A stretch of DNA of 64,000 nucleotides, from positions 372,001-436,000 of the forward strand of contig JARFXP010000003.1 in assembly GCA_029194675.1 (NCBI GenBank), given 5' to 3'. A program made the translations under genes and the position numbers. Position 1 is the stretch's first letter, and each line of letters starts with the position of its first letter. This DNA comes from Nitrospira sp. Its GTDB lineage: Bacteria; Nitrospirota; Nitrospiria; Nitrospirales; Nitrospiraceae. Below, piece after piece: positions 27,568 to 31,773 of the stretch. Under the pieces are notes generated by a model, which was given only the letters and a program-made list of their open reading frames with translations, was not told the origin of the DNA and did no database searches.

Positions 27568-28440
27568 ATGGTTTGGGCGATCGAACTGGTTCCATTCGAG
27601 CAAGGCAGTCTGACAGCGGCGCAGTTTGACCGGCTTGCCGAAGTGCCGCCCGAGCTTGAATGGGTCGTAAACATCACCAATGAGAAAGCCCGCCGTGCCT
27701 ATAAAATCGACAGGAGCGAGTTTTCAGAATTCCTTGGCCTAAGAAGGCCTGATGATTTTCGAACCGTGACGCGCGCGCACGAGATCGCATAGCGTGAAAC
27801 GCTCGAGGGCCGGGAACTATCCGCAGCGACGATTCGGCGGAAGCTCTCGGCCCTCACCTCGCTGTTTGATTACCTGTACGAGCGCAACGCCATATCCGGC
27901 AATCCGGTGGACGGCCTGAAGCGACCGATGGCGAACAGCAACGAGGGCAGCACCCCTGCTCTTTCGGATGAACAGGCGCGGCGGCTGCTCGAAGCGCCTC
28001 CGGAGGACACGTTAAAAGGGGTACGCGACCGTGCCATTCTGGCTTCGTTACTCGATCAGGGCATGCGCCGGGAGAACTGTGCAGGCTGGCTGTCAAGGAT
28101 ATCCAGAGCCGCGAGGGCGTGAAGCACTTCAAAGTGAAGGGCAAGGCGGGAAGATTCGATATGTTCCCGTGCATCCGCTCGCGCAGCGGTTCATTGAACA
28201 TTATTTACAACTTGCCAGTCGCGACAACGACGAAGACGGGCCGCAGTTCCGTCCGGTTTTGAGTAATCGCACGGGAGAGCTTGAGAAGCCGTTGGATCCG
28301 AATTCAATCTATAGAAACGTCGTCAGAAAACATGGGCAGGAGACAGGCCTGAACATAGAGGTCAACGGGCTGTGTGTTAATTCGATGTGCGCGACGGCCG
28401 CCACGAATGCCCTCTCGCATGAAACAAGACGCGGCCCGAG
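27568..28440 (+). pseudogene. Tyrosine-recombinase (phage-integrase family) pseudogene
   Basis: Three reading frames join to give an integrase: SAM-like core-binding part (SLTAAQFDRLAEVPPELEWV, YKIDRSEFSEFLGL), then after an in-frame TAG at 27790-27792 the segment ATIRRKLSALTSLFDYLYER and ALSDEQARRLLEAPPEDT with GVRDRAILASLLDQGMRREN, then after frame changes near 28075-28140 the segment KIRYVPVHPLAQRFIEHYLQ. The second catalytic box reads VNSMCATAATNALSHE, where intact relatives have a His-x-x-Arg, so both catalytic residues look mutated, and the region with the catalytic Tyr is gone. It is a clear relic, probably of an old integrating element. Confidence 0.85.
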
Positions 28441-28977: not shown

Positions 28978-29961
28978 TTATTGATTCGATACGCCATGGG
29001 CGAGCAATCGGGCAAGGGCAGCCGTGATCGGCTGCCCAGTCCTTTGTTCGACGAACAACCATTGTCCGGCGGGGTTGATTTCAAGAAACACATACTTGTT
29101 TTCCGGTGTCAGCCGCATGTCGATCGCGCCATACATCAAGCCGAATCGCGACAGAAGCATCTTTAGTCGACTGGTGACTTCGTCCGGCAGGGTAATGCTC
29201 TCGGTATGTGCCCGCGACATTTCCATGCGGAAGTCAACCGGGTATGAAGTTTCTTGTGAATAGATGGCGGCTGGAAAGAGTTCCTCACCGACCGCCGTGA
29301 TACGAAGATCGGCAATGGCAGGCACGTATTCCTGGAAGATGACGGGAGCATAGCGCACCGCGTCCAGCGCCTGTAATTCGGCCGGGCCTACAAGCCTAGT
29401 CTCTCGCCATTCGTGAATGGTGGCGGAAAACGCTTTGCAGATTGTGTGCCCAGCGCCGACCTCCTCAATGAAGCGGCGTGCTTCTTCCGGATCGTTCGTG
29501 ATAAGGGTTTTTGGAATGTCCAGACCGACTTCCTGAGCGATGCGCAGTTGAAAGGCTTTGCGGCTCGCAACGTCATCGCGGCTGGGATGATTGATCCACC
29601 GAGCATCGAGGGCATTCCAAAAACCGGCAAAAGCCTCCGATGCTTCGTTGTAAGCAAAGGTCTGATGTGTACCGCGAGTGACCTCAGGGTGAAGTTTAAA
29701 CGATTGAGGGCGACGCCACCAGACGGAGCGAATGTCGGCGCATCGGATTTCCGGCGTGGATTGAGAATACAGCGAGAACGAACGGACTCCCTTCCGCTCG
29801 TATGCCATCACGAGCCGAAGCTGCTGAGGAAACTGTGAAAGGTCGAGTAACCGCGCGTCGGCTCCCAGACGCCCAAGTTCAGCCAGGACCGCCGTCGCAT
29901 GTTCATCCACGGCGTGAGAGACAAGCAGGATCACACCGACCGCTTTTTGCTTGTTAGGCAC
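28978..29961 (-). CDS. ATP-grasp ligase of the MvdC/MvdD (graspetide synthetase) type
   Basis: 327 residues from a GTG at 29961 with GAGG upstream. Features of MvdC/MvdD-like ligases are visible: an N-terminal pre-ATP-grasp domain with DIRSVWWRRPQSFK, the ASRKAFQLRIAQEVGLDIPKT linker, and the C-terminal FLEINPAGQWLFVEQRTGQP signature where acidic Glu and Asn coordinate Mg-ATP. Known relatives use ATP to form ester or amide links between side chains of a precursor peptide. It starts six bases after the tyrosinase stop, so both are translated from one mRNA. The only plausible substrate nearby is the TLKFRDD repeat tail of the tyrosinase. Family is well supported; substrate is inferred. Confidence 0.82.
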   Translation of the reverse strand: MPNKQKAVGVILLVSHAVDEHATAVLAELGRLGADARLLDLSQFPQQLRLVMAYERKGVRSFSLYSQSTPEIRCADIRSVWWRRPQSFKLHPEVTRGTHQTFAYNEASEAFAGFWNALDARWINHPSRDDVASRKAFQLRIAQEVGLDIPKTLITNDPEEARRFIEEVGAGHTICKAFSATIHEWRETRLVGPAELQALDAVRYAPVIFQEYVPAIADLRITAVGEELFPAAIYSQETSYPVDFRMEMSRAHTESITLPDEVTSRLKMLLSRFGLMYGAIDMRLTPENKYVFLEINPAGQWLFVEQRTGQPITAALARLLAHGVSNQ

Positions 29962-29967
29962 TGAGCC

Positions 29968-31356
29968 TCAGCAACACCCTCCTTCATGCTGCGCGAGTTG
30001 CTGGTATTCTGCCTGCAGCGCGGCGTATTCTTGACGAAGCGCCATCAGTTGCTGTTCTTCGTTGGACGTGAGAAGACCCTGTCGCTGCGCATCTTCCCGT
30101 TCCATGATCGCTGCCTCGCATTGGGCGAGGGCGTTCTCACGCTCCGCAAGCGCCGATTGGAATGCGTCCGGAAAGCTCTGAGTCCATGCCATGGAGTGAT
30201 GCGGAGTGGCAAGGATGAACGGCGCGGACGACCGCCCCGCAGCACCTTGACTCATCTCTCGCACACCGGCCCTCGGATCGGGCAGGCCGGGGCCCGGCGT
30301 CACGCCGTCATCGGCAACCTTGAGTGTCCCACCGTCGTCGGAAAATTTCATCGTCGGCGTATCGTCCCGAAATTTGATGGTGGGCGGGCTATCGTCTCGA
30401 AACTTCAGTGTGGGCGGAATATCATCCCGGAATTTCAGAGTCGCGATATCATCTCGGAATTTCAGTGTGGGCGGAATATCGTCCCGGAATTTCAGAGTCG
30501 CGATATCATCTCGGAATTTCAATTTGGGCCGGCACTCGGGTTCCGTATCGTAAGCGTATCCCAGCGCTTGATGATCAAGCACGCTGCCGGGAGTCACCGT
30601 CTGACCTATGCCGGCCCACGGCTGCATCGCGTCTCCCAGATTGTGGCCCTGGGCCGCTCCGTTGACCGGCAGATACCCGGCGCCGGGATGGAGTCGTTGC
30701 CAATCCGCCCAGAGCTTATCTACGAAGCAGTGGTGAAGGAAGAAGATGGGATCGTTGGGAGAGGACATGGGCAACATAGATCCACCGACCCATACATGCA
30801 CAAGGTTGTGCAATTGAGGACCTGATATCCATCCTTCAAGGCGATTGCGAAATCCCGAGGCGGACAATCGAGTATACGGCGCCACGTCGTAGACCGTTTC
30901 GTTGAGAGCGGACGTGACGTCACTCGGCGTGGGAAGCGAGGGTGCCGAAATCCCGAAGCGACGTCGAAGGAATGGCCCATCGACATTCAGAGTCCAGTTA
31001 CCGTTCGCATGGGCAAAAGGCCCGGTCATCACTTGTCCGTCGGAAGGCCGGCCATCGCCGCCCATGAACGTGATGTCCCATAGAGACGAGCTTGGTGAAT
31101 TGTCGACCGTCCAATTCCAGTATGGAAGCGTGACGCTCGAATCAATCGTTTGGAGGTCCAGCTCGAACCGCCGAAGATACTCGCGATGCCATGGTAGAAA
31201 CGCAGGTCCTCGATGGGCATCGTTCATAGCATTGATGTGTTCTTGCACGTACTGGTCATACTTGCCGTTTGCTTTCAGCGCCAATACGGCTGCCACATAG
31301 TGTCCCTTTTCCTGAGCCGTAAGGGTTGCTTGATTCTTTCGACAGCGAAGTGCCAT
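29968..31356 (-). CDS. Tyrosinase-family protein with C-terminal array of graspetide-like TLKFRDD repeats
   Basis: 462 residues, with AGGAGG before the ATG. Residues 1-270 are a type 3 copper tyrosinase domain: CuA histidines in QEHINAMNDAHRGPAFLPWH (His40, His48, His57) and CuB histidines in PQLHNLVHVWVGG (His183, His187) plus DPIFFLHHCFVDKLWADWQ (His208/209). Residues 278-350 are eight tandem repeats of Thr-Leu/Ile/Met-Lys-Phe-x-Asp-Asp. A Gly/Pro linker, then a Gln/Glu-rich coiled coil (ALAERENALAQCEAAIMERE) and a HEGGCC end follow. Tyrosinases oxidise phenols with O2. The repeat resembles microviridin cores (T-x-K-Y-P-S-D), and the next gene is a matching ATP-grasp ligase. A MelC1-like cofactor gene precedes it. 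Confidence 0.85.
   Translation of the reverse strand: MALRCRKNQATLTAQEKGHYVAAVLALKANGKYDQYVQEHINAMNDAHRGPAFLPWHREYLRRFELDLQTIDSSVTLPYWNWTVDNSPSSSLWDITFMGGDGRPSDGQVMTGPFAHANGNWTLNVDGPFLRRRFGISAPSLPTPSDVTSALNETVYDVAPYTRLSASGFRNRLEGWISGPQLHNLVHVWVGGSMLPMSSPNDPIFFLHHCFVDKLWADWQRLHPGAGYLPVNGAAQGHNLGDAMQPWAGIGQTVTPGSVLDHQALGYAYDTEPECRPKLKFRDDIATLKFRDDIPPTLKFRDDIATLKFRDDIPPTLKFRDDSPPTIKFRDDTPTMKFSDDGGTLKVADDGVTPGPGLPDPRAGVREMSQGAAGRSSAPFILATPHHSMAWTQSFPDAFQSALAERENALAQCEAAIMEREDAQRQGLLTSNEEQQLMALRQEYAALQAEYQQLAQHEGGCC
30307..30525 (-). repeat. Tandem repeat array coding for eight T-[LIM]-K-[FV]-x-D-D units
   Basis: Units in order end as KLKFRDD, TLKFRDD, TLKFRDD, TLKFRDD, TLKFRDD, TIKFRDD, TMKFSDD and TLKVADD, separated by two or three residues (IA, IPP, IA, IPP, SPP, TP, GG). 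At DNA level a 57-base two-unit block is nearly identical at about 30425 and 30482, which indicates a recent duplication. The last units (lower coordinates) are more diverged. Confidence 0.9.
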
Positions 31357-31407
31357 TTCATCCTCCTGTACCAGAAGTCCACGTTAGGGTCCATAGACAC
31401 TTCCGAA

Positions 31408-31773
31408 CTATTTCTCGCCGTGATTGCGATCAGGTTTGTGACTCGGGTGTGAGCCGTGGCCAGAGTGTGGCTCAGAGACACTAATCTCAGCTTCTCCCCA
31501 TTGGCGAATGAGATCTTCGGCCAACTCATACGGGGAGCCATAAACTTTAAACATGCTCGCGTGCGAAAGAAATCCGTCCTCTGCTCTTTCAACAGGGATC
31601 TCGTTCCCGTCTATACGGAGACGAACCGACGCATCTTCCTTTGTCAACGCCCTCTCTCGTCCAGCATCAACCTCTATAGTGTGTCCACGGTAGACAGTTT
31701 TGTCCGGACGTTGCCCCTCTTTCTCCGGTGAAGCAGTCCGATGTCGGCGTCGCCTGTTTGTTTCCTTCGGCAT
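31408..31773 (-). CDS. MelC1-like tyrosinase cofactor (copper caddie) candidate
   Basis: 121 residues from ATG 31773 with GGGGAGG upstream. The middle follows the pattern of Streptomyces MelC1: TVYRGHTIEV, then VRLRIDGNEIPVERAEDGFL, then SHASMFKVYGSPYELAEDLI, matching the MelC1 order of YxGRxI, a VDGxxLxV strand, a dG-x-x-S turn, a Tyr near the loop and a closing helix. MelC1 proteins deliver copper to apo-tyrosinase and hold it until activated. The C-terminus is rich in histidine (HSGHGSHPSHKPDRNH), which could bind copper. No signal peptide is seen. It lies 51 bases before the tyrosinase gene. Similarity is by pattern only, so confidence is moderate. Confidence 0.6.
   Translation of the reverse strand: MPKETNRRRRHRTASPEKEGQRPDKTVYRGHTIEVDAGRERALTKEDASVRLRIDGNEIPVERAEDGFLSHASMFKVYGSPYELAEDLIRQWGEAEISVSEPHSGHGSHPSHKPDRNHGEK

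Follow-up and report, generated by a model that had tools for sequence, protein, structure and literature searches.

The window considered here is a 64,000-nucleotide stretch of a Nitrospira sp. contig, and all positions without a locus label refer to it. On its minus strand, from 31773 to 28978, lies an operon of three genes that encode, in order, a small MelC1-like protein, a tyrosinase with a long repetitive C-terminal tail, and an ATP-grasp ligase resembling graspetide synthetases (Table 1). The gaps between them are only 51 and 6 bases, and the open reading frames agree with a preliminary description of this DNA, which took the tail for a series of graspetide-like cores, the ligase for the enzyme that cross-links them, and the tyrosinase domain for the leader of its own ribosomally synthesized and post-translationally modified peptide (RiPP). 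The tyrosinase itself was correctly recognized. Its MelC2 match covers residues 5-270 and is below the equivalog cut-off of 450 bits, and all six copper-ligand histidines are invariant in a sequence alignment.

What lies beyond the catalytic domain? First comes an array of eight contiguous heptads: KLKFRDD, four copies of TLKFRDD, TIKFRDD, TMKFSDD, and TLKVADD. The number and position of these repeats had been given correctly, but not the claim that all eight begin with threonine; the first has lysine at position 1, and the other seven read T[LIM]K[FV]xDD. The array has a tandem-repeat score of 238. T1, K3, D6, and D7 stay constant despite varied synonymous codons, with a nonsynonymous-to-synonymous ratio (pN/pS) of 0.03 compared to 0.43 at L2, F4, and R5, as calculated from repeat units that were picked by motif in a gap-free array. 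Two further elements had been overlooked, namely, the nonapeptide tag PFILATPHH and a C-terminal helical hairpin. In an AlphaFold2 model, residues 278-394 are disordered and residues 396-459 form the hairpin; relatives keep a helical C terminus with an EYQQL-like end. Neither tail nor tag matched an NCBIfam precursor model at E values up to 10, a search in which the HMMER filters may lose weak matches. Could this simply be a low-complexity tail that came by chance to lie beside an unrelated ATP-grasp gene? Slippage readily yields short tandem repeats. However, the key repeat positions are under purifying selection, and the same gene order and tag recur in dozens of loci from about ten phyla (see below), which brings the probability of a chance neighborhood close to nil. 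By its tandem score, its pN/pS, and the recurrence of its architecture, the array is more than an accident.

The identification of the ligase, first made from its FLEINPAGQW signature, is borne out by Pfam matches to PF21068 and RimK and by the NCBIfam model TIGR04187 (GRASP_SAV_5884), which is the best model at 252 bits; its relatives score 209-264 bits with it. TIGR04187 is thus the closest description at hand, yet the ligase and its relatives are a distinct subfamily. The structural model of the ligase (predicted local distance difference test [pLDDT] 94) is close to the graspetide macrocyclases AMdnB (Z, 33), MdnC (33), MdnB (31), PruB (31), CdnC (31), and PsnB (28); RimK is more distant, with a Z of about 23 compared to 27-33 for the macrocyclases. 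K176, Q210, R220, D243, R245, E294, and N296 are invariant in all 84 sequences aligned, and K135 and D281 are kept in 83 of them. The predicted active site is MvdC/MvdD-like and intact. No relatives of the ligase were found in viral contigs.

Table 1. Features of the tyrosinase-ligase operon (window coordinates)
Feature	Position	Strand	Basis
MelC1-like copper chaperone/caddie, 121 amino acids	31408..31773	-	Weak match to NF047833; conserved position
Tyrosinase with C-terminal tail, 462 amino acids	29968..31356	-	PF00264, 2.5e-43; MelC2, 332 bits
Tyrosinase catalytic domain, residues 5-270	30547..31344	-	NCBIfam and PDB matches stop at residue 270
Core-like repeat array, residues 278-350	30307..30525	-	Repeat search, pN/pS, predicted disorder
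Tag PFILATPHH, residues 379-387, candidate C-terminal recognition (follower) motif	30196..30222	-	Motif found on unrelated enzymes
C-terminal helical hairpin, residues 396-459	29980..30171	-	AlphaFold2 pLDDT about 80-92
ATP-grasp graspetide-synthetase-like ligase, 327 amino acids	28978..29961	-	TIGR04187, 7.8e-75; PF21068

The preliminary description knew of no system of this kind. It belongs, in fact, to a large family, seen earlier only as "peptidases next to ATP-grasp genes," and the co-occurrence of repeats and ATP-grasp gene in relatives, proposed as a check, is found across about ten phyla. When about 85,000 GTDB species genomes were searched with the ligase as the only query and tail and tag ignored, 80 ligase loci were found, in Chloroflexota, Acidobacteriota, Planctomycetota, Pseudomonadota, Actinomycetota, Verrucomicrobiota, Bacteroidota, Myxococcota, and Krumholzibacteriota, as well as in one archaeal metagenome-assembled genome. 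At most of them, the open reading frame that ends at the ligase start encodes an enzyme with a repetitive tail. Assigned by motif, with Pfam confirmation in representatives, these enzymes comprise 23 astacins, 21-23 trypsin-like proteases, 16-19 M43 proteases, 5-6 subtilisins, 2 tyrosinases, and 1 matrixin. The median gap between enzyme and ligase is 16.5 nucleotides; it is at most 100 nucleotides in 78 of 82 cases, and in ten the genes overlap by 4 nucleotides. A simple hydrophobicity test revealed no clear N-terminal signal peptide among the classified enzymes.

An astacin-like protease from a genome of the same order (L002) stands beside a ligase 48% identical to that of the window, and an M43 protease of Burkholderia stagnalis (L025) stands beside one that is 52% identical. 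Since both proteases end as the tyrosinase does, with a helical C terminus and a tag that has the common form PF[ISV]L[AS]TPHH, unrelated enzymes carry one and the same C-terminal tag. In its strict form, PFx[LMVI][AS]TPH[HQRA], it is present in 46 of the 82 neighbors. Searched as a DNA pattern, the tag turns up in only 2 genomes among 396 from the phylum, each time at a ligase locus; in 35 genomes behind other loci it occurs in 17, once each and always within the ligase locus, while a reversed control pattern gave no matches in these 35. The tag is a PF-type recognition motif like those of graspetide precursors, but it is placed C-terminal of the core. In L059, L070, and L084, repeats flank it on both sides, as expected if the tag is the recognition element and the repeats are the cores. 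The idea that the tyrosinase domain is the leader does not survive this comparison, because the enzyme domain is freely swapped and the constant element is a separate tag, PFxL[AS]TPHH, that resembles graspetide leader motifs.

Do the tails look like substrates? Across the loci they fall into several classes, namely, TxKFxDD, PTxxxD/GTxxxD, KxxxD, TxKE...KDP, and PKD/PKE. In the TxKFxDD class, the spacing from donor to acceptor is enriched at +5 and +6, with a z-score that is partly circular because the class was chosen by motif. Weight is therefore placed on 42 tails not chosen for their spacing, in which a Thr or Ser is followed by an Asp or Glu at +5 in 335 instances compared to 106 expected (z, 24.8). 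Lys-based classes have the acid at +1, +4, or +5, and in some tails (L031) Lys occupies position 1. A ring from Lys3 alone was considered as the common denominator and discarded; in the tails of B. stagnalis and Marivita, Lys3 is mostly absent and the T-to-D spacing of +5 is kept. The shared element is thus a donor five residues before an acceptor, with Lys3 dispensable.

Tail type, moreover, follows the ligase and not the enzyme class. A ligase clade of 21 with 98% support comprises the neighbors of tyrosinase, subtilisin (S8), M43, astacin, and matrixin (M10) enzymes, mostly with TxKFxDD-like tails, whereas M43 enzymes in another ligase clade have PKD tails. Among pairs of different enzyme class, tail similarity rises with ligase identity (rho, 0.36), and none of 999 Mantel permutations gave a value as high. 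Tyrosinases of relatives that lack an adjacent ligase also lack such a tail in six of six cases inspected; three of the six have repeated C-terminal domains of another kind. It might be argued that the ligase modifies some other target and that the tail, itself unmodified, serves as an acidic spacer or binds metal through its repeats, seeing that the Asp pairs and the HH of the tag could bind metal and that the cross-links are deduced from ligase family and conservation. This would leave unexplained why tail type tracks the ligase across enzyme classes, why donor and acceptor keep their spacing, why the tag is always found together with the ligase, and why tailless homologues go without one, and we consider it highly unlikely. 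The proposal that the ligase cross-links Thr or Lys to Asp in the tail is instead strongly supported by comparison: repeats and ligase occur together, the distance from T to D is kept, the tail changes with the ligase, and tyrosinases of relatives without a neighboring ligase are tailless.

The locus is thus very probably an enzyme-borne graspetide system. The ligase encoded 6 bases downstream would use the tyrosinase as its ribosomal substrate, and the tyrosinase would at the same time work as an enzyme. How might such a system operate? The ligase would dock on the C-terminal PFILATPHH, a natural "follower" that takes the place of an N-terminal leader, and would phosphorylate Asp side chains in the disordered repeats, namely D6 and perhaps D7. 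Attack by Thr1 (Lys in the first repeat) would then close one small ring per repeat, a Thr1-Asp6 ester, and a Lys3-Asp7 amide is a possible second ring, the chemistry and connectivity being inferred from ligase family and conservation. Separately, the MelC1-like protein may aid copper loading. Finally, the modified tail would remain attached to the enzyme and form a spacer or stalk, stiff and resistant to proteases; this is the most likely fate and yet the least certain step.

Must the tail stay? It could be cross-linked and then set free as a classical RiPP, such as an antimicrobial or an inhibitor of proteases, with the enzyme as carrier or, in the protease loci, as self-cleaving maturation peptidase. 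The characterized microviridins and plesiocin are protease inhibitors (PMC8939145, PMC13097080), peptidases make up most of the neighbors, and peptide processing by such peptidases has been proposed (PMC8939145). However, tyrosinases bear the same tail and cannot cleave it, no C39/PCAT exporter is among the recurrent neighbor families annotated, and tag and helical hairpin are kept at the C terminus. Release is therefore an unlikely outcome. The same chemistry would also be compatible with a zymogen-like latency element, with the enzyme held inactive until the tail is taken off or rearranged. Graspetides inhibit proteases, and all the enzymes concerned could harm the cytosol and have no evident N-terminal signal peptide. 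Against latency, TxKFxDD is common to enzymes whose active sites are unrelated and are built on copper, zinc, or serine, and separate small companion genes exist (the MelC1-like gene and a lipocalin-like gene upstream of M43), so that we regard it, too, as improbable. Because one repeat type is found on copper, zinc, and serine enzymes, a general function such as that of a stiff spacer seems preferable to an inhibitor specific for one active site.

Several points weigh against an enzyme-borne system. (i) Natural graspetide precursors are short, have an N-terminal leader, and are usually cleaved. (ii) The 252 bits of the ligase are below the TIGR04187 cut-off of 350. (iii) About 40% of loci have a loose form of the tag or none, and there its P and F had been built into the search pattern. 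(iv) Several loci come from metagenome-assembled genomes, and related loci are not independent, so the z-scores are inflated. The carrier here is a 462-residue enzyme rather than a short dedicated precursor with an N-terminal leader, and the system would work like a graspetide system but is not a classical one. With these points counted, we lean with moderate confidence toward a widespread, portable cassette of repeat tail, PFxL[AS]TPHH tag, and dedicated ATP-grasp ligase that moved among at least six enzyme classes and about ten phyla and that makes a permanently cross-linked tail; this would serve the enzyme as a structural or functional component instead of being released as a natural product.

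The remaining member of the operon is less clear-cut. The MelC1-like protein has a His-rich C terminus and no signal peptide, and it matches the NCBIfam model NF047833 with 23.4 bits (E, 5e-5), short of the cut-off of 120. Its gene position, directly upstream of a tailed tyrosinase, is repeated in the Chloroflexota loci L026 and L028. Its preliminary assignment as a MelC1-like cofactor, which the model cut-off does not endorse and the gene position favors, thus rests on weak similarity plus conserved position. The same position is taken at M43 loci by a small lipocalin-like gene of about 105-130 amino acids (L025, 6105-6413, and seven other M43 loci), whose product is possibly an intracellular guard or chaperone. 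Other neighbors recur as well. In the PKD-tail loci L085, L090, L100, L101, and L102, an M28 peptidase gene in the same orientation precedes the ligase by about 2.2 kb, and in four Cellulomonas loci (L067, 5514-7619, and other astacin loci) the next gene after the ligase encodes a GGDEF-EAL protein. In a ligase subclade (L059, L070, L082, L083, and L084), the neighbors have no recognized enzyme domain and share a small domain, GKFVLSxGxGxxVTL. Another ligase of the family, 36% identical, lies at L121 (4114-5921, genome G077) next to the gene of a protein that ends PVEPFAYMVRKNYPP...; the two may form a separate graspetide-like system.

Around the window operon, no tRNA and no sharp GC shift were found, so there is no clear island signature. 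PADLOC-DB gave no match to anti-phage defense, and promoter and terminator scans of the locus scored no higher than shuffled sequence. Just downstream of the ligase, a plus-strand open reading frame (27907-28122) has a weak, below-threshold match to phage integrase and may be a mobile-element remnant.

Should this reading hold, it would be natural graspetide chemistry on a folded enzyme with a C-terminal recognition tag, an arrangement so far only engineered, and it would lend itself readily to the cross-linking of protein tails as a tool. It also raises the question of why a cross-linked tail is needed by tyrosinases and proteases that have no evident signal peptide. A literature search found nothing that joins graspetides with tyrosinase or names KFRDD; Lee 2020, Ramesh 2021, and Iyer 2009 were outside that search.

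Where do these loci stand among known systems? The census of Makarova et al. (2022) contains two ATP-grasp branches without a precursor, 7 and 8, accompanied by peptidases "of several unrelated families" that were supposed to cut other proteins, with a YscW homologue in branch 7 and a truncated ATP-grasp in branch 8; citing Lee and Iyer, it still treats both as unsolved (PMC8939145). In the account of Carter et al. (2026), group 32 is accompanied by "diverse families of neighboring proteases," to which a part in maturation or resistance is ascribed (PMC13097080). Matched by neighborhood descriptions rather than by tree placement, our loci fit branches 7 and 8 and may also correspond to group 32. 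Peptidases of several families are neighbors at the relatives' loci, if not in the window itself; a YscW homologue is encoded in L002 and L077, and a truncated ATP-grasp-like gene is present in L120, L123, and L124. At L120 (3782-7017, genome G004, same genus), a PKELKE-tailed tyrosinase has a small MelC1-like gene on its 5' side and a truncated and then a full ATP-grasp gene on its 3' side; it looks like a "branch 8" counterpart of the window system in which Lys-Glu takes the place of Thr-Asp. Lys/Glu-rich tails beside truncated and full ATP-grasp genes are also found on an M6 peptidase (L123, 5920-7899) and a DUF6519 protein (L124, 5697-8504), both from genome G010 of the same genus. The difference lies in the role of the enzyme. 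Branches without a precursor, KxxxD rings made by a TIGR04187 ligase, and a leader that functions at the C terminus all fit the loci found, so the neighboring enzyme is likely the precursor, though its folded domain is not the leader, and the missing substrates of this ligase group would be the enzymes' own tails.

Corallotide (group 15, CorA/CorB) is similar in its TIGR04187-type ligase and its unusually large precursor with repeated single-ring motifs; mass spectrometry and nuclear magnetic resonance established one Lys-Asp lactam per KxxxD repeat (PMC13097080). The KxxxD spacing is also seen here (K3-D7) and in Cellulomonas tails. In contrast, the corallotide precursor is a peptide of about 22 kDa without an enzyme domain, the leader order is conventional, there is an extra hydroxylase, and the system is confined to Corallococcus. 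The microviridin (MdnB/MdnC) and plesiocin (PsnB) systems share the ligase fold, catalytic residues, a PF-containing recognition motif, and, as proposed here, Thr/Lys-to-Asp/Glu chemistry, but they have short precursors with N-terminal leaders and released products, whereas here the tail is on an enzyme and the tag is C-terminal. The Streptomyces MelC1/MelC2 operon has the chaperone-tyrosinase pair and the copper ligands but neither tail nor ligase. RimK, an ATP-grasp enzyme of the same superfamily, likewise modifies a folded protein at its C-terminal tail (glutamylation of ribosomal protein S6), but it adds free glutamates and makes no rings. A parallel in layout is fuscimiditide (ThfA/ThfB), for which Johnson et al. 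(2026) showed that a leader shifted to the C terminus remains functional, with RPFG as the key motif and the core N-terminal of it (PMC13003496). That C-terminal leader was engineered; the one proposed here would be natural and stands behind a folded enzyme.

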